Assembly (NCBI RefSeq): GCF_036669915.1
Contig: NC_089313.1
Span: forward strand, 2,895,085 to 2,959,084
DNA: 64,000 bases
Direction: 5' to 3'
DNA from: Pocillopora verrucosa
Taxonomy: Eukaryota > Cnidaria > Anthozoa > Scleractinia > Pocilloporidae
In this document: positions 3,135 to 27,839 of the stretch, piece by piece
Numbering within the stretch: the stretch's first letter is position 1
Layout of the letters: every line of letters begins with the position of its first letter
Notes under the pieces: generated by a model
What the model was told of the DNA's origin: nothing
The model's input: only the letters and a program-made list of their open reading frames with translations
The model's database searches: none
Position numbers and translations under genes: made by a program

Positions 3135-4203
3135 TTAGATTTCCCGCCATATTTACCCGCGAGCCGCAAAACATAAATGCATGAGTGTTAAATATTAACT
3201 GGACCACCCCTTGGCAAATATATTTATTAGTAGCAAATAAGATGTTGAACAAAAACCAAGAGATCATGGTCAAATAAAACGTAAAGATAATTTATTACAA
3301 ACAAAAGAACTGTATGTTTGTTCCAATCGAAAGATTTTACAGTGCAAAGTTATGCAAATGATCTTTGACCTGAATCTGCTTTTGGTCGATGATAGCGAGG
3401 TCAGAGGATAACATCGACCGAAACTATTAGGCCGGTCATATTTAAGTGTCGATCCTCCTTTTAACGCCTTTATAACAGCTAGATTTTTTCTTAAATATGT
3501 GATCTAGACAGAAATTAGTTTGTACAAGTTATGGGAAGAATACTTTCGCAATAAAATATTGAAGAATACGACGCTTTATCGTCAGTCAGTCACACAGGTC
3601 ACGGTCTCTTGATTCGCCGGAAACGAGCAGAAAAATAGAAGACTCTCGCTACGATTCCGCTGACGTGTCATGGGCTCATCTGGTTTGGGACGATGATATG
3701 TATTGCCCTCGGGGTGTTGTCAATTAATCAGATCGACCGAAACCAGGTCGACAACTTACGAACCAGCCAAACATTTCGTTAACAGCGCCATCGATCAAAA
3801 TGTCATTACACTCCAACAAAAGACCCGCTTTTCTGTTCAAATCTGCCAGAAACTGGCTCAAACGCACTTCCTATTCCATGAGTACACTGTAAAATACGCT
3901 TAGTGCTTTCCGTTCATAAATGCTAAAACTGGGCAAGAAAAGCCAATGTGACGTCACCTATTATTATTAGTAGGAACGCTATCAGAGAGGTCTAAGCTAA
4001 TGAAGAAAGACTTCTTTTGTTTGAAATTTGTGGTCCAATTACCATTAACTGATATCTCTAAGCTCTTTAGGCAGATGCATGTGGAGTTGAATTAAAAAGA
4101 TCTCCCACTCGCATACTGTTCCATATCTCCTTTCATCAACGCTTCAAGTCGACGACAAATTTACGCGGTTATCAGATCAGATTCAGTAATACATCAAGAA
4201 AGG
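3135..4203. other. intergenic; 5' flank of first receptor
   Basis: No gene is seen between the divergent CaRF-type start and the first receptor. From about 3905 to 4203 the sequence is clearly homologous to 8283-8595 in front of the second receptor, sharing phrases such as TAGGAACGCTATCAGAGAG. The promoter and 5' UTR were therefore duplicated with the gene. Confidence 0.6.
3949..3956. promoter_or_regulatory. CRE-like palindrome upstream of receptor 1
   Basis: A perfect TGACGTCA lies about 250 bases before the first receptor ATG, just after a CCAAT pentamer (3944-3948). The equivalent place in the other receptor flanks carries degenerate versions: TGACGTTA at 8325, TGATGTCA near 24030, and GACGTT near 19610. 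This is a sequence match only; use by CREB/ATF factors is inference. Confidence 0.35.
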
Positions 4204-5094
4204 ATGGATTTTATTCGGGTGGTTTTTTGGTTTTTCATCTTCTTAAGTTTGGTTGGAAACTGTTGGGTTATTTTCGTCATCACAAGAAGAAGACAATTAC
4301 GGACAACAGCCAACTGGTTCATTCTTTCCTTGGCGGCGGCTGATCTGGGTGTTACTTGTGTATATTTCTCGACCTACGTGATTTGCGAAGTGATTTTGGA
4401 TACGTGCAATGAAAAAGTTGCTGGGATATTCACCTTTTTCTTCGCGAACGTCTCCGCCATCGGGTTGATCGCCATGGTTGCGGAACGCTATGTTGCAATT
4501 GTGCATTCGCTGAAATACGTCCGTGTTTTCACGACCGCCAGAAGAACATTTATTATAATAGGGGCCTGTTGGGGATTTCCATTTCTATTCACCGTTTTGA
4601 GACGCGCCATGTATCTTGCCGACGGCAGACATTCGGTTGTTAAAACCCGTATAGTCGATGTTATTTACATTTTGCTTTTTGTATTGTCACCAACAGTGCT
4701 TCTCTTGACAGCACATTTTCATATCCTATTAATTGCTCGCAAACTCTCTCTGCAAATGAGAGCTCTCATGAAACAAGTTAGATTTAACATAACTGCAAAC
4801 TCTTTGAAAATAAAGGAAATTAGAAACGTGGGAATAAAAGCATCCACAGTGAGGTTGGTTTCTGTACTAGTTGCTATTTTTACCGCTTGTTATGGAATAG
4901 GTTTTTACGTCGTGAGCTGCAACACCTTGGAAACTTGTCACGTGTCCGAATATATAAGAGTGATAAATAGGTTGCTTCTATTAGCCAATTCTACGTTAAA
5001 TCCTCTTGTGTACGCGTTCCTCAAAGAAGACATCAAGAGAGAATCAAAAGCTTTTCTTTGCTTCAAGAGGCACTTAAAAAAACTTCCCTTTTAG
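4204..5094 (+). CDS. class A (rhodopsin-like) GPCR, paralogue 1
   Basis: Single-exon 296-aa receptor with seven hydrophobic segments and almost no N-terminal tail, since TM1 starts at about residue 5. TM1 has the GN pair (residues 18-19), TM2 the LSLAAAD aspartate, TM3 ends in ERY instead of DRY followed by VAIVHSLKY, and TM7 has NSTLNPLVYAF with NPxxY. TM6 reads FTACYG and lacks the usual CWxP. ECL1 has a cysteine (LDTC) but ECL2 has none, while ECL3 has a C-x5-C pair. The short ECL2 without cysteine and the paired ECL3 cysteines recall melanocortin-type MECA receptors, but ligand and coupling cannot be told. The ATG sits in good context (AAGGATGG) and aligns with the start in paralogues. 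An AATAAA lies at 5238. It is the first of a plus-strand tandem cluster. Confidence 0.9.
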   Translation: MDFIRVVFWFFIFLSLVGNCWVIFVITRRRQLRTTANWFILSLAAADLGVTCVYFSTYVICEVILDTCNEKVAGIFTFFFANVSAIGLIAMVAERYVAIVHSLKYVRVFTTARRTFIIIGACWGFPFLFTVLRRAMYLADGRHSVVKTRIVDVIYILLFVLSPTVLLLTAHFHILLIARKLSLQMRALMKQVRFNITANSLKIKEIRNVGIKASTVRLVSVLVAIFTACYGIGFYVVSCNTLETCHVSEYIRVINRLLLLANSTLNPLVYAFLKEDIKRESKAFLCFKRHLKKLPF

Positions 5095-8000
5095 ATTCAT
5101 CAAGAGTGACAAGTTTGGAGAATTCCTTTCAGCGATGCTGACACGACAAAGTATGAAATCTGATCATGCAAAATGGCCCGCGAACATTGTGAATACATTT
5201 AAATTTAGAACTAGGCGTAGTGCTGTTGATTCATGGAAATAAAGCGAAAGACTATTGAGCGATTTGAATGTTTTTATAGAATTTTAACAGGTCGGTAGTT
5301 AATATCACCCCTCAATCTGTCACCTTCTCAATTTATCTTTTTGTGCCAAAGAAAGGTTAGGCCCTGTTTGGTTCAGTGATGTTTAGGCCATAACTGTTTT
5401 TTTTCCCCCATCGTATAGAATAGTCCTAATTCAGTGTCCATGAGTTCATGGATCTTCTGTCAGCAGAAAAACCTAGTTAATATAAGCTGAAAACGTGCAA
5501 ATGAATAGATCCTCAGTATTGGTACTTACGAAAACTAATGCATACCGCTTACAAAAATAACTTTCTTCTCTACTGCCAATTTTTAGCTATCATCTTTTAG
5601 GGGACAGATATGGAAACGCAGAATCGAAGGTAGACTGACAAAATGAAGAGAAACGAACGAAAGAAGAAAGGGAAAAAAAATGCTATTTCCGTCCCCAGGA
5701 ACTACGCAGTATTTATCATTGGGGCGCCTTGAAAAAGGCATAAGCTTCATAGGGGAACAAAACAGTAAGACAACTATACATGCTTTCCCTTTGTGGAGAG
5801 CCACTATTATTAATTATAAGTCCTCGCAGGAGCGAAGTGAATGTTTCCAACATGCTAAGGGACACAGACACTTCAAAGGTGCATTTGTTACGCTACGTGT
5901 CGCATGATTGTGCCTTTTACCAAGCAGTTGTTTTACTCTTTGTTGAATAAAAAATAACTGGCAAAAATCCCTGAAATTTGGTTCCCGAACAATATAAAAA
6001 CCAACCTTTCTGCCAGCAGCTGCATACATTTGAAGGGTCAATAAAACATGTTTCCATAAGCTGTCATAAATTTTTCCATCGAGTGTTTGGAACGCCTTTA
6101 GAATGCAAATATAAACCTCTTTTTTCGCCGTTGCATATTTATATTAGCTTTTGACTTCAAAATGACATGCCAAAAGTTTAAGTGCTCAAAGTGATCAGAA
6201 AATTAAGAATGCTTATTCCATGGTCCGGGATCATAAGCCGCTGCTGTATCCATCTTTGTCTTCGTTGAGCATCCGTTACAACAATCCAAGAGGCAGTCCT
6301 CTCATGCATTTTTATGAACGAACAGCCTGTTTCAAGCCTTATATGTCCGGGAATGTGAGAGATATTTTAATTAAGCAAAGTGTGACTTGCACAATAAACA
6401 AAATATTGCTCCTCTGCCAACACTCTGGCGACTCGAGTGACATTTATACTGTTACCACTCAGCAGAATGTTCGATGATTTTGGTATTTTATGTATGTTAC
6501 TATTGCAGATTGATCAATTGATTCACTTTTCTTCCTTCCATATTATTCCTTGTCTTCACAGCAATTTTCTTCTTTTCAAGGCGCATCTTGATTTTCTAGA
6601 AACTTAGATATGAGACAGAGGAAAGCCTGAACTTCTGATAAACATGTCGTGGGAAAAATTGGGAAAAGTAAAGAGCTTATTTTCCCCATTGCTTATATCA
6701 GCTTGCGAGAGCAGATGCCCTTTCGGCTTTTAGGTCCAAACTAACAAGCAGAAAGTTGACTAAGTACTCAAAGTGATGGGTGAATTAAGAAAGGCCATTT
6801 CCTAGTCTGGGATCTTAGGTTAGCTGATGCATCCATTTATGTTTAACAACAGATATAACAACACAAGAAGCTGTCTTCTTCTGCAGTCTTGCGATCAAAA
6901 AGCCCTTATCTAGCCTTACGTGCCCATTAAATGTAGGGGATATTTTAATTAGGCGAAGTGAAAGTTGTCTAATTTGTCTTACTCTCTGGCAACGTAACTG
7001 ACATTTCTATTGTTGTCACTCAGAAGAATGATAAATTAATCATTTATTTTTCAATATAGCCTGACAATTCAGTTTAATCAACTAACACTCTGCTTCGCCC
7101 CCTCGAGGCCTTGAAAAATAAGCTTAACTGCTGGGCAAATAAGGAAGAGTCATTTCAAAGCTATCGTACGAACGAGATTGATTGTTTCCAAGGTAGCTCA
7201 CGAATGAAGACCCATGGAGAGCGCATTCATCAAGCCTAGAGTCGCTTAGCTGTGTCTTCCCATTCTAACTGTTTATTGAGTTCTTCATTGAATAAAAATC
7301 ATCTTTAAAAAATTATTATGGTTTGTTTTCTGTCAGTTGTGAAAGCTACTTTTCTGTCAATAGCTGCATACATTTAATGGGTAAATAAAACATGCTTTCA
7401 TTAGCTCTCAAAAAGTGATTGGAATTTTGAATTGAAGAGAACGCTTCTCGACAACTGATTAAAAGCTCAATTTTTTGCCGGTGGATATTCTTATAAGCTT
7501 GCGAGAACAATTTCTGTGTTCAAAATTGCTGGTGGAAAGTTTAGTAAGTGCTCAAAGTGATGGTGAATTAAAATGGCAATTTGGTAATCTGTGATTTAGG
7601 TTCAAGAAACTATCCTCTGTGATCGAACGGACTGTTGTCATGTTAAATACTCCAAAAATTGTTATTTTTAATGGGCTAAGAATAAGCATAACGAACTTGA
7701 ACAAATAATTCCAAAGAAAGTTAATTCAAATGCCACTGGTAGAGGAATAAGCATGTTTATTTTATCGTGGGTGTCATGGAGAAAACAAGGAAAAGTCTAT
7801 CAAATGTCAGCAGGTTTCCAAAATAGTGAACGGACAACTTATCTTCGATTAATAATTTTCTGATTTTTATTAGCACCCCTCTTTTCGTTTTAACTTTTAA
7901 TGAACTTTTAAGAAAGTAAGTCTTGAGTTATTATCTTAGACATATATGAATATTTAGTTTTGCAGTGTAAAATTATACATTAATAGTTTAATTAATACAG

Positions 8001-8595
8001 TTTTTTAGAGGATTTAAAGTGGTGATGCATAATTCTTTTAGCTGATGTTGGAAGTCTTGGTTCCATTTCAGTTCATTCATAGCATGCGTTTCGATAATGA
8101 TAATAAAAATATGTGACAAGGTATCACCGACACAAGACACTGTTTGGTGATGATCAATAAGTTATTGGCTGTCGAAATCAAACGTTACTCTCGATCGCTT
8201 TGCTGACTGAATAAAAGGCAATGACATGGAACGGGTATGCTCTATTAGTTTGCAAGCTCGTAATTGTCCATGTTGACAAAAGGTCCATAAATGCCAAAAC
8301 TGTGCAAAAAAAAATAACACTTAATGACGTTACCTATTGTTGTTAGTAGGAACGCTATCAGAGAGTTATTAGCTGATGAAGAAGGACTTCTTTTGATTGA
8401 AATTTGTTGTCCAATTACCATCAACTGATATCTTTGAGCTCTTTAAGCAGCCGCATGCAGAGTTTTATCAAAGAGGTCTCCTCCGACTCGGATCTGAAAA
8501 CTCGTTCTACTACCTGATATCTGCTTTCTTCAACGCTACAAGTCGACAGCAAATTTACCTTACAGGAGCAGATTCAGTGAGACAATCCGTAAAGG
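5095..8595. other. intergenic with duplicated flank modules
   Basis: No gene is seen. The 3' flank from 5100 to about 6560 is repeated after receptor 2 (9470 to about 10260), including the GATTTTGGTATTTTATNTATG phrase near 6475 and 10178. A second, more diverged copy occupies about 6780-7040 and another about 7080-7600. A further module at 7670-7830 recurs at 22890-23050, and 7900-8110 recurs at 18540-18730 and 23180-23400. The small ORFs here are not conserved between the copies and look non-coding. Confidence 0.6.
5238..5243 (+). promoter_or_regulatory. poly(A) signal of receptor 1
   Basis: AATAAA about 145 bases after the stop of the first receptor. In the second receptor the aligned flank reads AATTAAAA. 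Confidence 0.45.
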
Positions 8596-9468
8596 ATGGA
8601 TTTTATCCTGGTGGTTTTTCTGTTTTTCACCTTCTTAAGTTTGGTTGGTAACAGCTGGGTTATTTTCATCATCGCAAGAAGGAGAAGATTACGGACAACA
8701 TCCAACTGGTTCATTCTTTCCTTGGCGGCGGCTGATCTGGGTGTTACTTGTGCATTTTCGCCCTACATGATCTGCAAAGTGATTTTGGATACGTGCAAGG
8801 AAGGAGTAGGCGTGATTTTCGCCTTTTCCTTCGTGAACGTCTCCGCCATGGGGTTGATCGCCATGGTTGCGGAACGCTATGTTGCCATCGTGCATTCGCT
8901 GAAATACGTCCGTGTCTTCACTACCACCAGAAGAACATTCTTTATTATTGGGGCCTGTTGGGGATTTCCATTTCTATTCCCCGTTTTGCAACTCGCCATG
9001 TATCTTGCCGGCGGGGTAAGACATTCGGTTTTAAATTTCCCTTTATTAGGAGTTATTTACATTTTTCTTTTTGTAGTATTACCAACAGTACTTCTCTTGA
9101 CAGCTCATTTTCATATCCTCTTAATTGGTCGCAAACTTTCTCTGCAAACGAGAGCTCTCATGAAACAAGTTAGATTCAACATGACCGCAAACTCTTTAAA
9201 AATAAAAGAAATTAGAAACGTGGGACTAAAAGCATCCACAGTGCGGTTGATTACTGTACTTGTTGCTATTTTTACCGCTTGTAATGGAGTAAATTTTCAC
9301 ATCCTGATCTGCCACGCTCTCAAAATTTGTCATGTGTCCCAACATACACTAGTGATAAATAGGTTGCTTCTATTAGCCAATTCTACGTTGAATCCTCTTG
9401 TGTACGCGTTCCTCAAAGAAGATATCAAGAGAGAATCAAAAGCTTTTCTTTGCCGCAAGAGGCACTGA
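8596..9468 (+). CDS. class A GPCR, paralogue 2
   Basis: Single-exon 290-aa receptor, closest to paralogue 1 in sequence and in both flanks. It has the TM1 GN, TM2 LSLAAAD, TM3 ERYVAIVHSLKY, and TM7 NSTLNPLVYAFLKED. TM6 reads FTACNG, so the CWxP switch is absent. ECL1 keeps the LDTC cysteine, ECL2 has none, and ECL3 has C-HALKI-C. The C-terminal tail is short (RESKAFLCRKRH) and stops a few residues earlier than its neighbours. The ATG (AAAGGATGG) aligns with paralogue 1. An overlapping upstream ORF (8397-8651) is in another frame and is not needed. Ligand unknown. Confidence 0.9.
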   Translation: MDFILVVFLFFTFLSLVGNSWVIFIIARRRRLRTTSNWFILSLAAADLGVTCAFSPYMICKVILDTCKEGVGVIFAFSFVNVSAMGLIAMVAERYVAIVHSLKYVRVFTTTRRTFFIIGACWGFPFLFPVLQLAMYLAGGVRHSVLNFPLLGVIYIFLFVVLPTVLLLTAHFHILLIGRKLSLQTRALMKQVRFNMTANSLKIKEIRNVGLKASTVRLITVLVAIFTACNGVNFHILICHALKICHVSQHTLVINRLLLLANSTLNPLVYAFLKEDIKRESKAFLCRKRH

Positions 9469-12400
9469 AAATTACGTCCCTTCCAGGTTCTCCAGAGTGA
9501 CAAGTTAGGAGAAGATTTCCATTCAGCAATGCTAACACGACAAAGTATGAAGCGATGCAGAATGGCACGTGAACATTGTAAATACATTTGGATTTAGTAC
9601 TAGTTATAGTGCTGTCGATTCATGGAATTAAAAGCGAAAGGCTATTGAGCGATTTGAATGTTTTTATACTATTTCAACAGGTCGGTAGTTAATTTCACCC
9701 CTCAATAAAACATGTTTCCATAAGCTGTCAAAAATTTTCTATCGAATTTTTGGAACGCCTCTAGAGAGCAAATAAAAACCTCTTTTTTCGCCGTTGCATA
9801 TTTACATTAGCCTACAAGAGCAGATGCATTTTTCAGCTTCTTTTTTTCCAAATAACACGCGGAAAGTTCACAAAGTGTTCAAAGTGATCGGAAAATTAAG
9901 AATGCTTATTCCCTGGTCTGGAATCGTAAGCTGCTCTATCCGTCTTTGTCTTTGTCTAGCGCCCGCTATAACAATCCAAGAAATAGTCCCCTCGTACATT
10001 TTTATGAACAAACAGCCAGTTTCAAGCCTTACATGCCCGGAAGTGTAAGAGATATTTCAATTAAGAAAAGTGAAAGCTGTCTCATAACTTGCACAATAAA
10101 CAAAATATCGATCCTCAACCAACACTCTAGCGACTCGCATGACATTTATACTGTTACCACTTGGTAGAACGTTCGATGATTTTGGTATTTTATATATGTT
10201 ACTATAGTTGCAGTTTGATCAGTTGGTCCACTTTTCTTCTTCCCATATTATTCCTTGTCTTCAAAGCAATTGCAGTGCATTCATCCATTGTAAAGGTATA
10301 CTTCATTACTTGGAGATAACAAGAGTAATTCTGCGTCCTCATGGTTTTAAGCGTGCGACTACTTCTCCTAACCCTTCTAGTTTGCGCTTTGTTGTCGATT
10401 CACAGGCTACATTGTACTGATAAAAAATTGTAGTGTTCTATAAATGACTTTTTTTGAAGCTACTCCTGGATTAGATTGTATGAAATATGTACGTTTGGTC
10501 AGGTTAGAAGTAATTAAGGTTATTATCTACACAATCCACTTTTGTTTGGTGACTACCACTGGGTGATTAGCTGAAAAGACCAAGGGCAACTCTGTTTGTT
10601 GATTGATTAATTTGAATGACAAAAGTGATAGCTTACAAAGGAAATTTTCTTTCTTATTTTCCAACTTTCTGGTTCAGAGCAAATAACAGCTGGTCAGTTG
10701 AGTGCAATATCTTCTTTATCGACTTTTGACATTAAAACGTATCTTTATATGCCTTCTTTTGTCACCTTCACCCATTCCTGGTTTGGACCCTGTACGATGA
10801 GAAGCAAAACTTCTGTCAACAGCTGCATCCATTTGATGGGTCTTGCTCGAAACATGCATGAACTTTCAACTGAAGTGAACGCTTCTCGACAACAAACAAT
10901 TTCTTTTCGCCAATGCACATTCATATTAGGTAATTAAGTGTTAACAGCTGAGTTGAAAACGTAAATTGGCCACCGTAAAGAGTAAAAAAGCTGACGTTTC
11001 GAGCGTTAGCCCGAAGAGAGTGATATGTTAGGGTGACGAAGGGCTAATACTCGAAACGTCAGCTTTTTTATTCTTTACGGTGGCCAATTTACGTTTTCAA
11101 CTCAACTGTTAACACTTAATTACCTGCTACACTCCCCCACCGACGCAGCACCGCAGTTTCTTTTGAAACTTACCCCGTTTATTCATATTCATATTAACGC
11201 GCGAGAGCAGATGTCTTTTCAGCTTCTGCTTTCAAAACTATACGTGGAAGGTTTAGTAATAACTTAAAGTGATCGGTAAAATGGTTATATGCTGCACATT
11301 TTTCTAATTGAACGAAGATCTCTTTATAGTCCATTTGAGTCCATTAATATTTATGGGAGATGTTTCGAGAACAATAAAGAATTAGTCTCACTAGATGGCT
11401 TAGAGATGGCAAATTGCACAGGAGTTAAAAGTTATGTGAACTTTAATTACGAAGTAAATGATATTGAAGAGTGTTCCTTTTTATCTTCGAAAGCGTAGAA
11501 GGAAGAAGAGGAACTATTTTTTAATTTAATAGTTAAATGTAAGATGCTTAAAAACACAGGGTGTATCATCCAAATGTTGGAGCCCAAAAGCGAGATGAAC
11601 TCAGCTTTACGGAATGAATCCTGACATCAGAACTCAAATATTCCTTCCGAGTAAGATGACGAGCTCTTGGCAGGTTGGTGTGTTTTGTAACTAATTGTAT
11701 TGTTGGTACTATTTCGCCGTTTCAAAAGCAGAATCCTAAACATGCGATCGTTCTTTTTAATTTCTTTCACATTTTCTTACGATTGGTCACATGGGGTATT
11801 CAGTCCTAAATGACCACTTCTTACCTGAAAACTGTGGCGAAAAAGCCATGTATTTTTAGTAAAAAAAAATTAGTTGTCCTGTTGCGATGACCAACCAATC
11901 AACTCGAAAATCGATTTCATATTGTAAGTGCAAAACCCATTGACTGCCTTTCTGGTAATTTTTCCGTCGATGTTGTTTTCGTCTACCTTTAAATGTTGTG
12001 GATATTTTACTTTCAAATAAATAATGAATTGAAGAATAAAATTACCAACGAACAAAATATCTCTTCTCGTAACGTATTCCATCGCTTTTACATCTCCAAA
12101 TCTACTCTCAACTGTGATAACTTCCCTCGCTTAAAATCAACTCGAGATACGAGATGTCAAATCGGTCATAGATTGTAAAAGAGGTTTATGAGTAAAGAGC
12201 TTTTTAACTTGTCTTTGTTTATTTCCTCGCACCCTAATACATACAGCTAGCAGTGTTCGCAGCAGCGCGCCAAGAAACCCCGGCAGGAAAAAAGCTTCTA
12301 AAACTCCATTTCTTTAGTTAATGATCGCCTTAAACTAAATTGCTTTCTTAGCAATTAGCCAATTATGTACTGCAGGCGAAGGATGCGGTACACTTCGTTA

Positions 12401-13129: not shown

Positions 13130-14032
13130 ATGGGTATTGACTGGATTGTAGGTTGGTTTTTCACTTTCTTTGGTCTGTTAGGAAACACCTGGATTATTTT
13201 CATCATCGCTAAAAGAAGAAGGCTACAAACGACCACAAACTGGTTCATCCTTTCCTTGGCGGTGGCCGATCTGGGTGTTACTTGCGGATATTTTCCAGCG
13301 TCCATGATCTGCAATGTGCTTGTGGATACATGCAACAACGGCCTTCGCCTCATATTCGCGAACTTTTTCAGTGAAGTTTCTGTCACTTGCTTGATCGCTA
13401 TGATTGGTGAACGCTATATCGCTATCGTACATTCGTTGAGATACATCCATTACCTGACCACTTCTAGGGCAGTCACCGTTATCACGATCTGCTGGGCATT
13501 TCCTTTTCTTTTAGCCATTTTCCGGCTTATGGTCTATCTTGGCAGCGGTGAGGATTTAATCGCAGAAACGCCTGTATTCGCTTTCATTCACATCATGCTT
13601 TTTCTATTCCTACCAACAATATTTCTTTTCGCAGCACATCTCCATATCCTATTAATTGCTCGCAAACTCTCTCGTGAGATGAAAGTTCTTTTGAAACAGG
13701 TGAGATTTAACGTAGCAGCAAACTCGGTAAAAATAATGGAGGTTAGAAATGTAGGATTAAAAGCATCCACAGTCAGGCTGGTAACTGTGCTTGTTATCAT
13801 ATGTATGGCGTTTTACGGAATAGACATCCATCTGTCGATATGCTTTTATTTTAATCTCTGTGATGAGTCCTATTATGAAACAGTGGCAGCTGAAATGCTC
13901 CTCTTGACCAATTCTACGTTGAACCCTCTTGTGTACGCTTTTCTCAAAGAAGATATCAAAGCAGAATCAAAAGCTTTCCTTTGCTGCAGAAGGAAACTGA
14001 AACGATGTCCTTCTCAGCTTCATCCAGAGTAA
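13130..14032 (+). CDS. class A GPCR, paralogue 3
   Basis: 300-aa single-exon receptor. The open frame extends upstream to 13001, but ATG at 13130 (MGIDWIVGW) is chosen because it aligns with the starts of paralogues 4 and 7 and the upstream 43 residues have no counterpart. Motifs: GN in TM1, LSLAVADLGVTC in TM2, GERYIAIVHSLRY at TM3, NSTLNPLVYAF in TM7. TM6 reads VIICMAFYGI without Trp or Pro. ECL1 has VDTC, ECL2 no cysteine, ECL3 C-FYFNL-C (first Cys codon at 13841). It differs from paralogue 4 at about nine residues. AATAAA lies at 14196. Ligand unknown. Confidence 0.88.
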   Translation: MGIDWIVGWFFTFFGLLGNTWIIFIIAKRRRLQTTTNWFILSLAVADLGVTCGYFPASMICNVLVDTCNNGLRLIFANFFSEVSVTCLIAMIGERYIAIVHSLRYIHYLTTSRAVTVITICWAFPFLLAIFRLMVYLGSGEDLIAETPVFAFIHIMLFLFLPTIFLFAAHLHILLIARKLSREMKVLLKQVRFNVAANSVKIMEVRNVGLKASTVRLVTVLVIICMAFYGIDIHLSICFYFNLCDESYYETVAAEMLLLTNSTLNPLVYAFLKEDIKAESKAFLCCRRKLKRCPSQLHPE

Positions 14033-14958
14033 CAAGCCGCGAGATAAATTCATACCTCGGTGACTATGAAAATGGGTAAAAACTGACACACGACTGAAAA
14101 TATCTGTGCTCAAGAGAGTCTTTGTTGCGTGCTCTCCCCAAATATGCATGATAGATGACTTTTTTGCATAGGTCTTTCATCGCCATCATTGTCCGAATAA
14201 AGGCCTGAGAAACAATGTAACTGCAAGTGATCATAAGATGCTTCGCGAAAACCTAAGGATTCCCCTGGATTGAAACCGATTAAAAGCAAAGAACTTGTAA
14301 ACAACTGTACTTTCTCTATTGTAAGCCTTGAGCCATCTGTTACAGCGATGAGAACTGAACACTGAGAATTTGTGTATAATTACAAGAATGTAGAGAGACG
14401 AAATTAAACAAATATTAATGTCCATGAGAGAGGAGGAGGGTATGTGTACGCAGATTACGTAGTTTCAAGGACTAGTGGCTCCCGTCTTTGTGTTTTGTTG
14501 TCGCTTCGCAGCTTAAATATGCGCATAAAAATATGTTGCGTTATGTCATTCAACGACTTTTATAAACTGCAGCTCTGTAGGATCGCATGAGATATGTATA
14601 TACGGCGGGTTAAAATGAATCAATACCGACATAATACATTTTGTCTGAGTGATTGGCTGACATGAAAGGAAGTAACTGTGTTTGTTGATTTATTTAAATA
14701 ACAAAAGTGACAAAAAACCAAATATACAGAAGCCGAGCAAATATAATTTGCTGACCACACTTAACGATGTTAATAGGGCACAAGTCAGAGACCAATTGGC
14801 TCTCCAGAAAGTCGCACTCAAACGTGTGTTAAAAGAACTCACCCTCGTGTTACAATCTAAAAACCCGTCAATTTAATACCTTTGCATCCATCAACGCTCC
14901 AAACTCGTCGGCATATTTTCATTATCAATTCCAAATTCAGCCTCACAGCGAGCAGAAG
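14033..14958. other. intergenic between receptors 3 and 4
   Basis: Carries the receptor-3 3' flank with AATAAA at 14196-14201, then a module (about 14470-14700) that recurs at 16095-16228 and 19310-19560, followed by a 5' flank (14700-14958) homologous to 19500-19845. The ORF at 14682-14876 covers this duplicated flank, is not conserved as protein and is rejected as a gene. Confidence 0.6.
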
Positions 14959-15861
14959 ATGGATATTCACTGGATTGCCGGTTGGTTTTTTACTTTCTTT
15001 GGCCTGTTGGGAAACACCTGGATTATTTTCATCATCGCTAGAAGAAGAAGATTACAGACAACAACCAACTGGTTCATCCTTTCCTTGGCGGTGGCCGATC
15101 TGGGTGTTACTTGCGGATATTTTCCAGCGTCCATGATATGCAATGTGCTTGTGGATACATGCAACAACGGCCTTCGCCTCATATTCGCGAACTTTTTCAG
15201 TGAAGTTTCTGTCACTTGCTTGATCGCTATGATTGGTGAACGCTATATCGCTATCGTACATTCGTTGAGATACATCCATTACCTGACCACTTCTAGGGCA
15301 GTCACCGTTATCACGATCTGTTGGGCATTTCCTTTTCTTTTAGCCATTTTCCGGCTTATGGTCTATCTTGGCAGCGGTGAGGATTTAATCGCAGAAACGC
15401 CTGTACTCGCTTTCATTCACATCGTGCTTTTTCTATTCCTACCAACAATATTTCTTTTCGCAGCACATCTCCATATCCTATTAATTGCTCGCAAACTCTC
15501 TCGTGAGATGAAAGTTCTTTTGAAACAGGTGAGATTTAACGTAGCAGCAAACTCGGTAAAAATAATGGAGGTTAGAAATGTAGGATTAAAAGCATCCACA
15601 GTCAGGCTGGTAACTGTGCTTGTTATCATATGTATTGCGTTTTACGGAATAGACATCCATCTGTCGATAGGCTTTTATTTTAATCTCTGCGATGAGTCCT
15701 ATTATGAAACAGTGGCAGCTGAAATGCTCCTCTTGACCAATTCTACGTTGAACCCTCTTGTGTACGCTTTTCTCAAAGAAGATATCAAAGCAGAATCAAA
15801 AGCTTTCCTTTGCTGCAGAAGGAAACTGAAACGATGTCCCTCCCAGGTTCATCCAGAGTAA
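14959..15861 (+). CDS. class A GPCR, paralogue 4
   Basis: 300-aa single-exon receptor, about 97 percent identical to paralogue 3 by eye; differences include residues 2, 4 and 7, F/L and M/V in TM5, and M/I in TM6. All seven TM segments and the ERY and NPLVY motifs are intact. One change matters: the first ECL3 cysteine is now glycine (GGC at 15670-15672), so the C-x5-C pair conserved in the other members is lost. The 3' flank has AAAAAA where paralogue 3 has AATAAA. It is probably functional, but these two changes leave open early decay. Confidence 0.87.
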   Translation: MDIHWIAGWFFTFFGLLGNTWIIFIIARRRRLQTTTNWFILSLAVADLGVTCGYFPASMICNVLVDTCNNGLRLIFANFFSEVSVTCLIAMIGERYIAIVHSLRYIHYLTTSRAVTVITICWAFPFLLAIFRLMVYLGSGEDLIAETPVLAFIHIVLFLFLPTIFLFAAHLHILLIARKLSREMKVLLKQVRFNVAANSVKIMEVRNVGLKASTVRLVTVLVIICIAFYGIDIHLSIGFYFNLCDESYYETVAAEMLLLTNSTLNPLVYAFLKEDIKAESKAFLCCRRKLKRCPSQVHPE

Positions 15862-16095
15862 CGAGCCGCGAGATAGCAGAGATAGCATAGGTCGTTCATC
15901 ACCATCATTGTCCGAAAAAAGGCCTGAAAACACCGTAACTGCAAATGATCATAAAATGCTTCACGAAAACCTAAAGATTAAAAACATTTCTCAAGACTGA
16001 AACCAATGATATGCAAAGAACTTGTAAACAACTGTACTTCCTCTATCGTAAGCCTTGAGCCATCTGCTGCAGCGATTAGATCTGAACGCTGAACG
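15750..16095 (+). repeat. 3' tail and flank, first copy of tandem duplication
   Basis: The last about 110 bases of receptor 4 plus about 230 bases of its 3' flank are repeated almost identically at 16229-16565. Between the copies lies a 130-base piece (16095-16228) of the module otherwise found upstream of receptors 4 and 7. Confidence 0.75.
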
Positions 16096-16228
16096 TCTTT
16101 GTGTTTTGTTGTCGCTTCACAGCTTAAATATGCGCATAAAAATATGTTGCGTTATGTCATTTAACGACTTTTATAGACTGCAGCTCTGTAGGATCGCATG
16201 AGATATGTATATACGACGGGTTAAAATG

Positions 16229-16340
16229 ACCCTCTTGTGCACGCTTTTCTCAAAGAAGATATCAAAGCAGAATCAAAAGCTTTCCTTTGCTGCAGAAGGA
16301 AACTGAAACGATGTCCCTCCCAGGTTCATCCAGAGTAACG
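16229..16340 (+). pseudogene. 5'-truncated receptor tail (TM7 and C-terminus only)
   Basis: Encodes the end of TM7 and the tail in frame (LVHAFLKEDIKAESKAFLCC and onward to the same TAA), with Tyr of NPxxY changed to His (TGCACG). Everything upstream is missing: at 16228/16229 the sequence jumps from the intergenic module (GGGTTAAAATGA) into the receptor at CCCTCTTG. It is the product of an unequal duplication, not a gene. Confidence 0.8.
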
Positions 16341-17035
16341 AGCCGCGAGATAGCAGAGATAGCATAGGTCGTTCATCACCATCATTGTCCGAAAAAAGGC
16401 CTGAAAACACCGTAACTGCAAATGATCATAAAATGCTTCACGAAAACCTAAAGATTAAAAACATTTCTCAAGACTGAAACCAACGATATGCAAAGAACTT
16501 GTAAACAACTGTACTTTCTCTATCGTAAGCCTTGAGCCATCTGCTGCAGCGATTAGATCTGAACACTGAGAATTTGTGTATATTACAAGAACGTAGAAGA
16601 CGAAATTAAACAAATAATAATTTCTGCAAGTCCATAGTCCTAATAGAATATACAGCGATATAGTATACAACCATGTGACTGTAGAAATTTAATACTGCAT
16701 TTCTCAATTGCATCAACCCCGCTGATAATGGTTCGACTCATTTTAAATCAATACAGTGATTATTTGTATTTCTGTGTTAACAAACCATGCGCTTTGTATG
16801 AGATGAGGGCTGCGCACAAGTTTCGTGGTTCAAAGAAAAAAATAGTATGAAAGAACATTGTGGGGTAAGTATTTGACTATGGAGCCAACAGACCAGAAAA
16901 CAAACCTTTAAGAAAACAAACCTTCATAGGGCGTCTTTAGTAATCAAAAGCTCGATTATGAAAGAGTTTCCCTTCGACACAGTTGTTTTAAAGCTGTACA
17001 ACAAAAACATATCGATTCCTTTTATGAATTTCGGG

Positions 17036-17439: not shown

Positions 17440-17845
17440 GAGGGGCCCCGGGGCCCGACCCCTTCCACCCCTTTTATTTTGGTTTAAAAAAAAGAATCGC
17501 AAAAGGAAGAAAAGCCGGCAGGCCAAGCGACAAAAAAAGCGCCCCCCCCCCCCCCCCCCAGCTCAACGTCTGGAGCTCCGGGGACCCCGGCCCGACCCCT
17601 TCCACCCCTTTTATTTTGGTTTAAAAAAAAGAATCGCAAAAGGAAGAAAAGCCGGCAGGCCAAGCGACAAAAAAAGCGCCCCCCCCCCCAGCTCAACGTC
17701 TGGAGCTCCGGGGACCCCGGCCCCACCCTCTCCACCCCTTTTATTTTGGTTTAAAAAAAAGAATCGCAAAAGGAAGAAAAGTCGGCAGGGCAAGCGACAA
17801 AAAAATAAGCGCCCCCACGCCCCCCTCCCTCTCAGCTCAACGTCG
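17440..17845. repeat. C-rich tandem repeat, three units of about 130-137 bp
   Basis: Three successive units begin near 17454, 17591 and 17721. Each runs CCACCCCTTTTATTTTGG, A-run, AAGAATCGCAAAAGGAAGAA, CCGGCAGG, A-run, GCG, a C-tract of 9-18 bases (interrupted in the third), then AGCTCAACGT. Unit length varies with the C-tract. The overlapping proline-rich ORFs on both strands are by-products. A single inverted relative lies at 31190-31275. Confidence 0.8.
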
Positions 17846-19845: not shown

Positions 19846-20745
19846 ATGGATATTGACTGGATTGTCGGTTGGTTTTTTACTTTCTTTGGTCTGTTGGGAA
19901 ACAGCTGGATTATTTTCATCGTCGCTAAAAGAAGAAGATTACAGACGACAACCAACTGGTTCATTCTTTCCTTGGCGGTGGCCGATCTGGGTGTTACATG
20001 CGGACATTTTCCGGCGTCCATGATCTGCAATGTGCTTGTGAATACATGTAACAATGACGTTCGCATAATAACCGCTTTCTTCTTCCTAGAAGCTTCCGCC
20101 CTTTGCTTGACAGCCATGATTGGAGAACGCTATATCGCTATCGTGTATTCGTTGAAATACGTCCGTTTAATGACGACCAAAAACACAATTATTATCATCG
20201 CGACCTGTTGGGCAATTCCATTTCTTTTAATCGTTTATGAACTCATCATCTATCTTACCAGCATCGATTATTACGCTATAGGAACACCTATATTCGTTGC
20301 TATTTACACAGCACTCCTCCTAGTTTTACCAACAATACTCTGTTTCGGGGCACATCTTCAAATTCTAGTAATTACTCACAAACGCTCTAGAGAGATGAGA
20401 GTTCTTTTCAAACAGGTTAGATTTAACGTAGAGGCAAACTCGGTGAAAATAATGGGATTTAGAAATGTTGGAATAAAAACGTCCACCGTAAGGTTGGTGA
20501 CTGCACTTGTTATTATATTTATAGCATGTTACGGACTAGAAATCCGTGCGTCAATTTGCACTTACTTCAGTCTTTGTAATGTATCTGATCATGAACTAGC
20601 AGCAACAAATTTGCTCCTATTGGCCAATTCTACATTAAATCCTCTTGTGTACGCGTTCCTTAAAGAAGATATCAAGAGAGAAACAAAAGCTTTGCTTTGC
20701 CGCAGGAGGGAACCAAAACTACGTCCCTTCCAGGTTCATCCATAG
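19846..20745 (+). CDS. class A GPCR, paralogue 5
   Basis: 299-aa single-exon receptor starting MDIDWIVGW. TM1 GNSWIIF, TM2 LSLAVADLGVTCGHFP, TM3 GERYIAIVYSLKY, TM7 NSTLNPLVYAFLKEDIK. TM6 reads VIIFIACYGLEI, with no CWxP. ECL1 VNTC, no ECL2 cysteine, ECL3 C-TYFSL-C. It is more diverged from paralogues 3 and 4 in TM4-TM5 than at the ends. A poly(A) signal AATAAA lies at 20852-20857. Antisense ORF 19830-20117 is a shadow. Ligand unknown. Confidence 0.9.
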   Translation: MDIDWIVGWFFTFFGLLGNSWIIFIVAKRRRLQTTTNWFILSLAVADLGVTCGHFPASMICNVLVNTCNNDVRIITAFFFLEASALCLTAMIGERYIAIVYSLKYVRLMTTKNTIIIIATCWAIPFLLIVYELIIYLTSIDYYAIGTPIFVAIYTALLLVLPTILCFGAHLQILVITHKRSREMRVLFKQVRFNVEANSVKIMGFRNVGIKTSTVRLVTALVIIFIACYGLEIRASICTYFSLCNVSDHELAATNLLLLANSTLNPLVYAFLKEDIKRETKALLCRRREPKLRPFQVHP

Positions 20746-20851: not shown

Positions 20852-20857
20852 AATAAA
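20852..20857 (+). promoter_or_regulatory. poly(A) signal of receptor 5
   Basis: AATAAA about 110 bases past the stop codon of the receptor. Confidence 0.45.
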
Positions 20858-21649
20858 GGTTGTTTAATTTGCAAGCAATATCGCTCTTCAGGTAACTTTA
20901 TTGACGGGTGGTCTGTTGTCATTTATATATTTCATTTATTTTTCATGGCGTCAGGACATGCTACTCAGATCTATTACGCCAACTGCGCATAAAAAAACGA
21001 AAATATACTCACCCATGCTACACCTAATTAGAACAGCATTATTTCCCCCTGCTTTTTCGCAGCTTTTCATTTTATGTTTTTAGGAAGACCTGAATACATT
21101 TTTGAAGAACACGCCTCTTACACCTGGGCATAACTGTAATACTCTATGAACAGGTTCTGACCGACGTTCAAGCTCGACTAGTTTTTATTTCATAGCTTCA
21201 CTGCTTCTGCCGTAGCCCCCGTGTCGATGCACCTATCAGAGGCTGTTTGCAAGTATAGATTACTGACACAAAAACTACAGCCAGTCCAGTCATCTATCAC
21301 GTAAACGTACTACATTATTTGTGGACAACAGGGACATATTTTGCATTGCCATTAATTAAGCCTACTTTTTCTGAAGTTAAGCTACATTTTGCGAACGGAA
21401 ACAATCGATTACTTTCCATTAAAGGTTGAGCTGCTCCCAACTTTAACATTCTGGTTTGTGGTTTGTTTGCAGCTTCTCAGGCTAAATAACACCAGTAGAA
21501 AATGTGTTGTGTACTAGCAGTGATGCTTTGTTATGACGTTACTTACTCTGTTGCATAACAAAAAGGACATCTTATAGCGTTCTTTATATTTTGCAAATTT
21601 TAGCCATCAGTTTCCTCACTTATTGTTCTGAAAGGGCGGCTGTGGTGAT

Positions 21650-21838
21650 ATGCTTTTATTTTAAAATTTGTATCTAGCTACTCATAAAAAAGTAGCATTT
21701 CATTTGCTAGTTCTGGCCAATTCTACGCTAAATCCTCTTGTCTACGCGTTCCTCAAAGCAAATATTAAGAGAGAGTCAAAAACTTTCTTCCTCTGGAGGA
21801 CTCTAAAACAACATCCCCTTCAAGTTCACTCAAAGTAA
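21650..21838 (+). pseudogene. receptor fragment, ECL3 to C-terminus
   Basis: Translates as ICFYFKIC, then two stops, then LVLANSTLNPLVYAFL and the short basic tail to TAA at 21836-21838. NPLVY is intact but nothing upstream of ECL3 remains. It is a dead copy, older than the 16229 fragment. Confidence 0.75.
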
Positions 21839-24249
21839 CAAGCTAAGGTTAGAGAAGTGTTCATTCAAGCAATGCTGATTAGAAATTAGATAATGACTGA
21901 ACAAAAAACTGGTAGCCTTTGTAAAATAGATTTGAATTTAATCCTAAATGTAGTAAAGCGAAAAGCCACAAAACGATTTCTGTTGTCATTCAGTTGGATA
22001 GAGCCTTTTCAAAGTTATCGTAGGCACGGGATCGATGTTCCGACGTAGCCAACGGATAAAGAACCACAGAGCAGCCACAGAATATTGCTTGGTGATGCGT
22101 TTCTATTCTACGCGTTTGCTTAGCATTTTGCTGAATAAAAGTTTTGATCAAAGTCTTTGGGATGTGGTCCTTGTACGATGAGAGAGCATCATTTTTGCTA
22201 AAAGCTGAACGCATTTGTTGAAATAATGAAACGCACTTCCATTTGCCGTCATGAATTATTCACTGAGTGTCTCCAACTTTAATTGAAGAGAAAGCTTCTC
22301 GACAAAAAACAAAAAAACCCATTTTTCGACGTGCATATTCATGTTAGACAGCACTGAGAGATGCCTTTCTAACTTCTCCGTTCAAAATTCTACCCTAAAA
22401 GTTTAGTAACTGCTCAGAATGATCGACAAATTGTCCTAGAATCGAATTTTGGGCTGCATTATAAGTCTTCGTCCAGCACCGGCTAACAATTCCCATTGAG
22501 CAAACTTGTGATCTATCAACCTATTTCTGGTTTCATATGCCGGAAAATGCGAGGAAAATTTCAATTAAGTAAAGTATAGGGTTGTCTAATTTGCAAACAA
22601 TATCGCTATCCTGTTAACACTTCAGCGACTTCCTGACAATTGTCAAGTTCTTGGCATCTAGTAGAGTGATAAATCATTTTAGTCTTCGATATAGACTTCA
22701 AAAGCAGTTTTATCAACTTACACACTTTTCCTTCCTTGCCGCCATAGCACTGTTCTTCTTTTTAAAAAAATGGCGTGATATTATACAAAGTTAAGCATTA
22801 AGGCAGGGGATCAACTTTTGACTCACAATCCATTAAGAAAAACCAGCAGGTGCATTCTTATTCATATAACAATTTTCTAATTTTATTGTACTAAGGATAA
22901 ACATGATAAGCACGGACAAATAATTCATGAGAAATTTTAAGCAAATGTCATTGGTAAAGGAACATTTTTATTTTACTGTGTGAGTCAATGACAGAAAATT
23001 GAAAAACTCCCTCAAATGTCCGTAAGTTTGGCATCTCAGTGAACAGCCAGTCTTTTTCAACAATTAATTTTTGAGTCTTTTGAACCCAAAAAACCTAGTT
23101 ATTTCCTTTTTTTTGACCAATGCTAAACAAAAAATTCTAACTTCGGTTCGTCTCTTAATTTCGTTCTGAACATTGATCAAATTTTGATTACAGCGAAATT
23201 TGATTCTGAATAATTTTCTATATCTAGGCACCAATCTTAGATGACATCAACATACTTCAAGTTTTGCAGTAGAAAGTTATGCCTATGTACCTAAATATAT
23301 AGATATAGGTGTTTTAAGAGAAATGTTGCACTCTTTTTTTTAAGCGGTAGTAGCACATATATCGTCTATTTGAGTCCGTTCATTATAGGTGAGTCGATTA
23401 CTAATAAAAAAGGTTCATTGATTAGCTTAGCGTTGGCAAACTGCGTATAGGAGTAAAAGTTAATGCGTAATTTTATTTACAAAGTAGATGATATTGAAGG
23501 TGGTTACTCCTTACAGCTCTGGACACGCTACGCAGATATACCGCGCCAACTGCTTCATAAAAAAGGAAAACACACTCATTATGACAACACCTAATGAAGG
23601 CAGCATTAATTTTTCCCCTTTTCATTGATACTGATTTCTATATCTATGTTTTCACTAAGTACTTTAGTGAAGGAAACGCTTCTTACGCTTACGCTAAAAA
23701 ATATGTAGCTTATGCGTGAATAGATCTTGTTGTTACGGCACGACTACCCCGTATTAATGTGTCTTCGCGGCTCATGTCACAACCTCCATGCCGAAACACC
23801 TATCAGGGCCGGTTTGCAAGCCATAGGGCGCAAGAAAAGAGATACCAATGGTTTTTTTCTGCATAGCCATGACATAACCATTATTGGTTTAGTAGAGTTC
23901 TGTGACAAAGAAAAACCACCGAGGTGGAGTGACTATTAATGGGTAAGTTAATTATCATTTTGCAAGCTAATATCATCCGTTTCTATACGAGAAGATCTCA
24001 AATTGCAAAAACTGTTCAAAAATATATCAGTGATGTCACCAAATGTTATGAACGGCCCTCAGGGAGTGATTGGTTACCAACAGAAAGATCTCTTTTGTTA
24101 AATTGTTTCTGGCTGTTATAAACTGTCAATTTGCAAAGTGAAAATCCTTCAATTAATTACTCCTCGTATTGACATGCTTCCGTTGACGTTCCTAGTTACA
24201 AATTAATTTTCAGTGTCAGATCCAGATTAAGTCACACAGCCAGTGAAAG

Positions 24250-25106
24250 ATGGTTATTGACTGGTTCTGGATCGTAGGATGGTTTTTCATCTTCTTCGGT
24301 CTGGTTGGAAACATCTGGGTCATTTCAATCATTGCCAAAAGGAGAAGATTACAGACAACCACAAATTTGTTCATTCTTTCTTTGGTGGTGGCCGATCTGT
24401 GTGTATATCTGTGTGGCGGATAAATGCGATTACGGCGTTCGTATAACATTCGCCTTTTTCTTCAGAGACGTTTCCTCCATGGGCTTAATTGCCATTGTAG
24501 CAGAGCGTTACATCGCTATTGCGCATTCGTTGAAATACGTCCGTGTGTTTACCACCACCAGGAGAACATTCATGATCATTGCAATCTGTTGGGTAATTCC
24601 ATTTCTCTTTAATGCAATTTTTCTCAGCAAAGCTTCGATTGAGAAACGTCTGCATTTTTTTGTCATTTACACAGTGCTCTTTGAACTGTTACCAGCTCTT
24701 TAACTCTCAGCTGCACATCTGCATATCGTGGTAATTGCTCGCAAACTCTCCCTCGAAATGAAAGCTCTTTTGAAACAAGTTAAATTCAACATAGCAATAA
24801 ACTCCATGCAAGTAACTGAAGTTGGAAACGTGGGCCTAAAACTTTCCACAGTGAGGTTGGTAACTAATCTCGTTATCATTTTTATAGCACATTATGGATC
24901 TCCACATCTGGATCTGTAGTACCTTTAATCTTTGTAAGGTTTCTGAACGTGAGGTGACAGCAACTAGTTTGCTCTTGTTGGCCAATTCTACGTTAAATCC
25001 TTTTGTATACGCGTTCCTCAAAGAAGATGTCAGGAGAGAATCAAAAGCTTTTCTTTGCTGCAAGGGGCACGTAAAACTACGTGTCTTAAAGGTTTATCCA
25101 GAATAG
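24250..25106 (+). pseudogene. class A GPCR pseudogene, nearly full length
   Basis: Begins with an intact start and TM1 (MVIDWFWIVGWFF, GNIWVI) and TM2 (LSLVVADLCV). About 45-50 bases are then missing near 24405, removing the end of TM2 and most of ECL1 and shifting frame. TM3-TM5 continue (AERYIAIAHSLKY) to a stop at 24701-24703, TM5-TM6 resume in the same region (MVIARKLSLEMKALLKQV), a further frame change follows near 24890, and the tail (LANSTLNPFVYAFLKEDV) ends at 25106. With three or more lesions it cannot make a seven-TM receptor. Its 5' flank still resembles those of live genes. Confidence 0.85.
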
Positions 25107-26418
25107 AAAGATATGGGCCGATTTCCTTCCAGCAATGCTGACTAAAAAATACTACCGAACTTGTTAGATGTGTTTTAATTTAGCACATTCTTAGGTTGAT
25201 CAGTGGAGACAGCTATTTGCCGCCGTAATGTGTTGTGAACAAGTTTCGTTTTCTATGGTGTACACTCTGCCTGGAGCACAATTCAGGACGTTTTCCTATG
25301 AGTCTCTTGTTGCTGTCGGTGTCAGCTAAAAGGCCTGAAAAAGCCGAAAATGTGATCATTAAAGGCTTAAAGAAAAACGAATGACTTCTAAAATCCTCAG
25401 CATGATTGAATCTAACAATGAATAAAGAGCTTGTAAACAACAACATTCTCTGTTGCGAGCCTGTAACCATATATTTCAGCGAATAGATGTCAAAAAGGCA
25501 TAGAGATTCTTATATCAGAACATAGGTAAAGATAATTAAATCAAAAATAACTTATAAAAATCTTAAATGCTGTTAAGAAATACAACCATGTAACTGCAGA
25601 AATTTAATCCTGTTTTTCTCAACAGTCATAATCCCCTTCTTGGACGGCAAGCACTTATGAAAATTTTATCTGCACAAATAAGAATCATTTATATCTTGGT
25701 CCTGACGAACCATGTGATGTTCATGAGATAGGCATCTTAACGAAGTAATGGACCTCACAGAGAAAAATATAATTCAAATTAAGATTATCAGGAAAATACA
25801 AAGTTTATCAAACAATTTGGCTTTAAAGCAAACAAACCGGTGTGGAGGCCTTTATGGGACATCTTTGACAATCCGACGGTCGATTAAGGAAGCGTTTTCC
25901 TACCTGGGAATTGTTTTAATGCTGAAGCGAAAAAGTCATGCTGAAGTTTGACCCATTGTTTACCTGACGCAGTTTAGTTATCTTCACAGTTCTGTAACGT
26001 CAGTTTACCGTCCACACTCTCTTTCGAATCGTGTTGAGTCATCAGAGTAATGTTTAAGTCTAATTTGGATAGGTTGGCAAAAATAAATGATAATCTTTTA
26101 TTTTTTCGTAGGCCTGGCTTCCAAGCTTTCTTGTATTCTCTTTTGCCTAAGTTTCTCAAACAATCTTTCCACTGACTGCTCAGCGATTAATTCCAGTCAG
26201 TAAGAGGCTATCATAAACTGGCTACTTAGCGCTGATTCAGTATTAGTCTTTCCAGGAGAGGAGGGTGAATGTAAAATGTTTGTGTAGGATGTGCTATACT
26301 TCTTTATGCAGATTGGAATTTAAATGACGGCTTCAACCAGCTGACTACAAGAGGCTTCACAAAGTGCGTAAACTGACAGAGAAGTGTAACACATGCGCCG
26401 GCGCATATTCAGACGAGG

Positions 26419-26830
26419 ATGGTATTTCACTGGTTTTTGGATCGTAGATTGGTGCGGAACACTCATTATTTTCATTATTGCGAAGAGAAGAACACAAAAA
26501 TGTAAGCAACTTAGTATAGAATAAAAAAAATAAGATAATAAAAAATAATAGAAAATGGGCTTGTTCTTTCTTTGACGGACTCCGATGTCAGCATCATGAG
26601 CGGATGCTTTCCACGAAGGTTCTGTGATTTTTCACATTTACGTTCTGTCCTACAAAAACGCTTTTGTCCTGTATTTCCTAAATACATATCTTTGCGTTGA
26701 CTGCCACGATTTTTGCCAACATTCATTCGCTTAATTAACTCCGTGTTATTGAGACAAAGTCAACAATAATCATCATCTCTACGGCTTCTTGGGGGAGAAT
26801 TCTAAGAATTTTCACTGCGCTTCGTCTTAC
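26419..26830 (+). pseudogene. ancient receptor relic
   Basis: Starts with ATGGTATTTCACTGGTTTTT and GATCGTAGATTGG like the 24250 pseudogene, then ATTATTTTCATTATTGCGAA of TM1. A TM2-like stretch follows at 26556-26615 and a TM3-TM4-like stretch at 26700-26815. All frames are broken, and there are insertions of A/T-rich sequence. It is recognised only by order and similarity to paralogues. Confidence 0.55.
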
Positions 26831-27839
26831 GTGCAAACAACCCTTCATGGTCAGCCGAAAAAGACTGCAGATATTCTCCGTAGCGGGATTTGCAACCACA
26901 CCAATCGCAGCTACTCTAAAAAATTTGCTCGTTTCCCGTAAATTTGCAATAGAAATGACAAACTCTTGTCTTGATTTGATGTGGCGGCAAAATTGGTGAA
27001 ACTAATTTTGTAAACCATCATTAAGGAGGTTTATTCTTCACTTTCTGATTTTCGATGAGTACAGAAGAAGTTAATAATCTACCTTATGAACTTTGCGTCG
27101 TTTCCGTAAAATGCCATGACGAACTAATAAACATTGTTAGAATGTAGCCATAACATTTCTTGAAGATAGTGAGGCTGAAAGCGTTGTCATTTATCCGACG
27201 CAGGCCAGGAGGAAAAAAAACAATTGCAGTAATTCAACCCAAACTTCCAAAAACAAAATCTGAGACACTGGCAGAGCCGACTCCATCAATTAACTCCGCG
27301 AGAATGGTAACTTTATCCGCTTTTGGAACAAAGATGAGGGAGAGGACGTCTTAAAAGATAGTCGCTGCGAAAGGCCTCCTCACCGTTAGTCTTTGAAAGC
27401 AACTAGGTTTTTGGTACTTTGAGTGATTAAGGAAAGGATGTTGAACTTACTAAGTTGAGCAAGAGGCATCCTGCGTGTGCACTACAAAGTTTTTTTTTCT
27501 TGAACTGAGCGAGCTTGTCGTGCTCATACAATTCAGAGAAATGACTGAAGAAACAACGAGCAACTTAGTCTGACTCAAAGTTGGCGGTTATCGTCAATTT
27601 AACATAAGCACTCAGGCCTATACTGCTATGGCATATAAATGTGAAATTAAGGTGCAAGGCTGTAAAAGCAGACCTGTTGGAATAAGCCTGATGATCGTGG
27701 ACACGCGTAGTTTTCGTACGCCGCCAATATTGTGTTACAGGTGTGTTGGAAATGAAAAGCAAAGCTAAAAGTCAAACCAAATAATTTAAAGGACAAAAGA
27801 TGCTGATTTGTGATAACATAAATTATAGCCCTGCCGGTA

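Follow-up and report, generated by a model that had tools for sequence, protein, structure and literature searches.

How the copies of a tandemly arrayed receptor gene are born, lost and altered by their neighbours in a reef coral, and how far a single locus can keep these events apart, is the question raised by a stretch of 64,000 nucleotides of the Pocillopora verrucosa genome (NCBI RefSeq assembly GCF_036669915.1, contig NC_089313.1, positions 2,895,085 to 2,959,084 of the forward strand), hereafter the window, in whose own numbering all positions are given. The plus strand between 3.9 and 27.0 kb carries a genuine cluster in which one single-exon receptor gene is repeated in intact as well as broken form. 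An initial annotation, made from the sequence alone, had described it as an internal record of tandem duplication and loss, and this holds as far as the alignable flanks and the truncated copies are concerned; however, the copies have also exchanged sequence, and one of the intact receptors is composite. An array reworked by recombination is very probably what the sequence preserves, and the complete account, in which tandem duplication, loss and sequence exchange act on genes that would encode chemosensory receptors, is with somewhat less assurance taken as the best overall explanation.

The receptor cluster

The five intact single-exon receptors of the initial annotation were recovered in the open reading frame (ORF) listing as plus-strand ORFs of 290-300 amino acids, namely R1 (4204-5094, 296 amino acids), R2 (8596-9468, 290 amino acids, 79% identical to R1), R3 (13130-14032, 300 amino acids), R4 (14959-15861, 300 amino acids) and R5 (19846-20745, 299 amino acids), with start-to-start spacings of 4392, 4534, 1829 and 4887 bases and pairwise protein identities from 54% (R1/R5) to 97% (R3/R4). 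Their common orientation, as annotated, holds inside this interval. Beyond 27 kb it does not, and the cluster there continues in mixed orientation, since a sixth intact receptor, R6 (33486-34430, 314 amino acids, 49% identical to R5), and a short relic upstream of it (35684-35809) lie on the minus strand. All six intact copies, the five of the interval included, exceed the gathering score of the Pfam family 7tm_1 (73.7-87.0 bits, cut-off 30.5; 80.2 for R1 and 79.9 for R6).

The coding regions appear to be single-exon, as far as can be read from the DNA; the nearest in-frame upstream stop stands at -111, -6, -153, -129, -21 and -42 in R1 to R6, respectively, with no in-frame ATG between stop and start. 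An AG dinucleotide, aligned by eye about 20-30 bases 5' of the ATG in all six plus-strand copies (R1-R5 and the pseudogene P described below), could be the splice acceptor of an untranslated first exon. Putative poly(A) signals, taken as whichever AATAAA or ATTAAA comes first, are found 67-164 bases 3' of the stop in each of the six intact copies, but in DNA so rich in AT they may be chance occurrences.

R4 as a composite of its two neighbours

The 5' end of R4 is close to that of R5, the two differing at 74 of 492 sites (15.0%) of the 5' flank (14464-14958) and at 7 of the first 107 coding bases, which together delimit an R5-like module at 14464-15066 on the plus strand. Against R3, the nearest 150 bases of the same flank differ at 47 of 143 sites (32.9%), and farther out the two are hardly alignable. 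From coding position +109 to +881 the affinity is with R3: the plus-strand tract 15067-15839 of R4 and its partner 13238-14010 in R3 are distinguished by 7 of 773 sites (0.9%), silent sites included, and the 3' flank of R4 differs from that of R3 at 28 of 209 sites (13.4%) but cannot be aligned with its R5 counterpart. The proportion of silent sites that differ (pS) follows the same division, being 0.43 between R3 and R4 in codons 1-40 and only 4 of 180 silent sites in codons 40-300, while between R4 and R5 it begins at 0.09 over codons 1-40, is 0.34-0.64 in the windows from codon 60 to 280 and ends at 0.30 in the last one.

The position of the change may be fixed closely. Across 274 informative sites from -200 to +960, those on the left of the best breakpoint favour the pairing of R4 with R5 by 49 to 21 and those on the right the pairing of R3 with R4 by 199 to 5, with a single breakpoint between +107 and +119, at which the maximum chi-square is 150.3 against a permutation maximum of 20.7, the value of 150.3 being attained in none of the 2000 permutations. 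When triplets of copies were compared in 60 tests of the aligned coding sequences, 26 of which were considered in detail, the observed value was never equalled or exceeded in 1000 permutations in three, all of which include both R3 and R4. R4 is, on these comparisons, a patchwork of an R5-like 5' flank and 5' end with an R3-like body and 3' flank; therefore, no single gene tree describes the array, which is, judged by the same sites, no orderly succession of gene gains and losses but a set of neighbours that exchanged sequence.

Several observations weigh against so simple a picture. For each of the remaining 57 triplet tests, one or more of the 1000 permutations attained the observed value, and there is no clear survival of a correction for 60 tests; P or R5 as further mosaics, including a second exchange point near +228, are not secure; and a tree built from the first 108 coding bases fails to unite R4 with R5 (support 40-42), which leaves the flank and the silent sites as the basis of the 5' affinity of R4. 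In the segment trees P joins R3 over its first 108 bases (support 75) and R1/R2 over the remainder (95 and 88); its interpretation as a mosaic was dropped, as the triplet tests that include it are weak.

Duplicated flanks, truncated copies and relics

Self-comparison of the window revealed non-coding flanks common to several copies, in agreement with the duplicated flanks annotated between the copies of the interval. R1 and R2 differ in such flanks at 54 of 289, 27 of 219 and 70 of 525 sites (18.7, 12.3 and 13.3%). Because the flanks of R1/R2, the 5' flanks of R4/R5, the 3' flanks of R3/R4 and those of R4 and the 3' fragment diverge by just 2-19%, the sequence argues against the copies being all old one-to-one orthologues; tandem duplication and loss are, on the alignable non-coding flanks and the truncated copies, well supported.

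Broken copies were sought by nhmmer with a nucleotide profile of R1-R6 and E-values up to 10, for which the chance level was estimated at 4.2 bits as the best of 40 dinucleotide-preserving shuffles and at 1.2 bits in the reversed window. The nearly full-length pseudogene was confirmed as P (24250-25103, plus strand, 570.2 bits), in which, relative to the intact copies, there are gaps of 33, 21, 1 and 5 bases and, at two points, an inserted base; several of these indels break the frame, and a TAA at 24701 stands in the frame of its middle part. The 3' fragment, comprising the last 36 codons or so (16229-16335, plus strand, 95.6 bits), is also present and is fresh as annotated, with 1 difference from R4 in 109 compared coding bases. 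As for the three older relics, two are supported at the DNA level, both on the plus strand: a receptor 3' end at 21633-21835 (100.4 bits), and two pieces of approximately the first two thirds of a receptor at 26411-27026 (9.4 and 48.2 bits), which with the protein profile obtain 10.6 and 9.3 bits, near the best of 20 shuffles (9.3). The third was not found in 3.9-27.0 kb, where the only other nhmmer match, at about 17.05 kb, has 0.6 bits, below the best shuffle, and is therefore within chance. The minus-strand relic upstream of R6 reaches 17.8 bits by nhmmer and 4.4 bits by the protein profile, the latter below the best of the 20 shuffles scored with that profile (9.3). That a special truncation mechanism produced the remnants at 16.2 and 21.6 kb, both of them 3' ends, was considered and dropped, since the relic at 26.4-27.0 kb retains the opposite end.

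The junctions of the 3' fragment are readable directly in the sequence. It is abutted by 16094-16229 (plus strand), a copy of the piece 14483-14618 of the R4 5' flank (97.1% over 136 bases; 4 of 125 sites different over 14494-14618), and it runs on into the 3' flank to about 16579, so that 16229-16579 is a copy of the R4 3' end and flank at 15752-16104, with 7 of 351 sites different. Both pieces would be explained if 14483-16093 was duplicated in tandem and the 1,133 bases that match 14619-15751 were then lost.

A proposed order of events and its rivals

The copies would thus arise by tandem duplication of the gene together with its flanks, be lost by deletion or frameshift, and exchange sequence with their neighbours. 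In an older step, unequal exchange would have created the R4 chimera; one such exchange may suffice, because the two old edges of R4 are similarly diverged, the 5' flank from that of R5 by 15.0% and the 3' flank from that of R3 by 13.4%, which is about the divergence of R1 from R2. Later, gene conversion between R3 and R4 would have homogenised +109 to +881, down to the observed 0.9%, with a donor that from the sequence is not nameable with certainty. The remaining step would be the tandem duplication behind the 3' fragment, the new copy having lost its 1,133 bases; its divergence is 2-3%.

That no recombination took place, and that the body of R3 and R4 is just more constrained than the flanks, is extremely improbable. 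The receptors are indeed under purifying selection overall, judging by the ratio of non-synonymous to synonymous change over the whole coding sequence (dN/dS 0.17-0.57 in 15 of 15 pairs), but the silent sites of the tract are equally poor in change, at 4 of 180, and yet pS is 0.43 in codons 1-40 of the same genes; the explanation is contradicted, because constraint cannot equalise silent sites in only one part of a gene. An assembly artefact is improbable to a lesser degree; in that case the assembly would have set two haplotypes one after the other, or mis-mapped reads would have misled its polishing, and the 3' fragment would result, perhaps together with the close likeness of R3 to R4. The 2.0-3.2% that separate R4 from the fragment are compatible with alleles in a heterozygous animal and could be allelic; however, the 3' flanks of R3 and R4 are 13% apart and their 5' flanks, over the nearest 150 bases, 33%, which is excessive for a simple haplotype duplication, and their tract still holds 7 differences. 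Duplication, loss and exchange between neighbours remain the preferred reading of the cluster.

Receptor class and motifs

R1-R6 are, by their sequences, class A (rhodopsin-like) G protein-coupled receptors (GPCRs) without a subfamily placement and with a mild odorant-receptor lean. The motif (D/E)RY in transmembrane segment 3 (TM3), always as ERY, and NPxxY in TM7 are present in 6 of 6 copies. The TM6 motif CWxP, usual though not universal in class A, is found in none of the six, [C/F][Y/N]G standing in its place in each of them; nor has any of them the cysteines of the likewise usual, not universal, disulfide between TM3 and extracellular loop 2 (ECL2), either 25 residues before R3.50 or between W4.50 and the TM5 proline. 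Four other cysteines (52, 61, 68 and 244 in R5 numbering) are shared by all six. R4 is the only copy that lacks Cys 238 in extracellular loop 3, a residue present in the 97%-identical R3.

The olfactory Pfam family 7tm_4 (cut-off 27) is passed by five of the six copies with 31.3-34.2 bits, R6 obtaining 25.6, and 7tm_1 is always the higher of the two; two adrenergic receptors taken as controls score 21.6 and 21.3, and the lean towards odorant receptors therefore follows. Odorant receptors are typified by a MAYDRY-type motif in TM3, a PMxNPxIY-type motif in TM7 and FYG in TM6; simple patterns for the vertebrate-type TM3 and TM7 motifs matched none of the six copies. In searches of the PDB the top matches were the nociceptin receptor by profile (5.9e-21), the alpha-1B adrenergic receptor by single sequence (2.1e-12) and, with the C-terminal part, galanin receptor 1 (8.9e-6), and 447 sequences by single sequence and 617 by profile passed 0.001. 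A melanocortin-like or other named subfamily was rejected, as no subfamily is prominent among the best 60 of the 447, 617 and 262 sequences of these searches. AlphaFold2 on the six-sequence alignment gave an unusable model, with a mean predicted local distance difference test (pLDDT) score of 41.9 and a predicted template modelling (pTM) score of 0.34.

Selection and possible function

Amino-acid change is concentrated on the extracellular half of the receptors. With the halves set by class A landmarks, non-synonymous divergence is greater in the extracellular one in 7 of the 7 pairs run, out of 15 possible (P from 3.5e-8 to 1.2e-3); for R1/R2 the ratio of the proportions of changed non-synonymous and silent sites (pN/pS) is 1.04 in the extracellular and 0.22 in the intracellular half (P 3.5e-7). 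This contrast is weakened by the fact that the split was drawn after windows of 40 codons had been viewed, by the non-independence of pairs that share genes, and by the silent divergence, which is also unequal between the halves in R1/R5 and R5/R6. Each receptor would bind an external small molecule or peptide via its variable extracellular half, while the conserved intracellular face would signal through G proteins.

Chemosensory function is the most likely use of such receptors, at a chance close to even, and the term chemoreceptor-like, which implies no membership in a known chemoreceptor family, reflects the array form, the single coding exon and the variation on the ligand side. That the arrayed receptors respond to peptides, amines or lipids made by the animal itself, and not to chemicals of its environment, is less likely; it would accord with the hormone, peptide and amine receptors at the top of the PDB matches, but no subfamily is prominent among the best of the 447 and 617 sequences that pass, and receptors for external cues are the more typical case of recent duplicates whose extracellular halves vary. 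A role in innate immunity or in the host-symbiont interaction appears more doubtful still: it is proposed for coral-amplified GPCR-like families, with no functional test in the portion of that work drawn upon here (PMC10236652), and nothing in the window points to immunity. Perception of external chemicals remains the favoured, though tentative, function.

Other features of the window

The cluster is accompanied by several elements of different kinds. A near-perfect palindrome of about 200 bases (10928-11125, 86% self-complementary), perhaps a small inverted-repeat element, lies between R2 and R3, and a tandem repeat with a 130-base unit in 2.8 copies (17452-17825) between the 3' fragment and R5. 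Between the plus-strand array and R6 there is a minus-strand ORF of 410 amino acids (29003-30235), whose stop-to-stop frame has no Pfam match at E 0.01, and farther on another minus-strand ORF (48832-49200) with a full PLAC8 domain (75.5 bits). A dispersed repeat at 37001-37151 and 38634-38843 matches about 55080-55291, inverted, at 73-79%. From 58366 to 63998, at the window end, there extends a minisatellite of 110.6 copies of a 51-base unit (90% matches), which is divisible by three and open in long stretches on the plus strand. An exact search for an intergenic repeat in viral_contigs gave no match, a tRNA scan in the bacterial setting no genes, and Rfam at gathering scores no matches.

Relation to known receptor families and significance

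Receptors of similar kinds have been noted in cnidarians. According to its title, a work of Anctil et al. from 2007 reportedly concerns four coral GPCRs distinct from the classifiable rhodopsin members, and one of Churcher and Taylor from 2011 is said, again by its title, to deal with vertebrate-type odorant receptors from Nematostella. The present genes resemble the vertebrate-type odorant receptors in the single coding exon, the tandem arrays and the [C/F]-[Y/N]-G of TM6, which recalls FYG in 6 of 6 copies, but differ from them in that neither odorant-receptor pattern is matched and no cysteine is present in the ECL2 region in any of the six. No relatives were confirmed among the 33 pattern matches each in viral_contigs and genome_contigs, which are non-animal collections, nor were any found among phages. 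The olfactory-type GPCRs of the crown-of-thorns starfish likewise form rhodopsin-like tandem arrays with inferred duplication, but, in the part of the account considered, they average 522 amino acids against 290-314 here and have demonstrated tissue expression, while the present case is known from sequence (PMC5442662).

The nearest parallel is in corals, where, in the parts of the survey used here, the rhodopsin-like GPCR is the commonest domain among the amplified families (34 of 192 orthogroups) and the amplification is for the most part due to tandem duplication, in a birth-and-death regime (PMC10236652). Both the rhodopsin-like domain and the tandem array are present in the window, and the array is of a kind already described as common in corals. 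Gene conversion, however, is deemed very rare there, since the introns of duplicates diverge more than the exons (PMC10236652), whereas the present pair of single-coding-exon genes has a sharp conversion-like tract; single-exon genes would offer no introns for such a comparison. A limited search of the open literature found no case in which conversion had been reported for GPCR arrays of corals. The added twist of this locus is that an intact copy is, from its site patterns, a mosaic of its two neighbours.

As an array it is nothing unusual among large receptor families; its value lies in a legible order of events, with a chimeric intact gene, a tract whose 5' edge is fixed to about a dozen bases, and a fragment with readable points of duplication and deletion. 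A wider generalisation, to which we attach rather little weight, is that module swapping drives the evolution of the single-exon arrays of the lineage, which is probably cnidarian, with neighbours trading the promoter-plus-TM1 end and the TM2-TM7 body of their receptors, and that conversion is common in intronless families. If this were true, a receptor body could fall under the regulatory flank of a neighbour, and conversion would be frequent in just those intronless families that intron comparisons miss. Should similar tracts recur in other coral single-exon arrays, gene trees would give a biased tally of births and deaths and biased ages, and the opinion in print that gene conversion is very rare would need testing on intronless genes.

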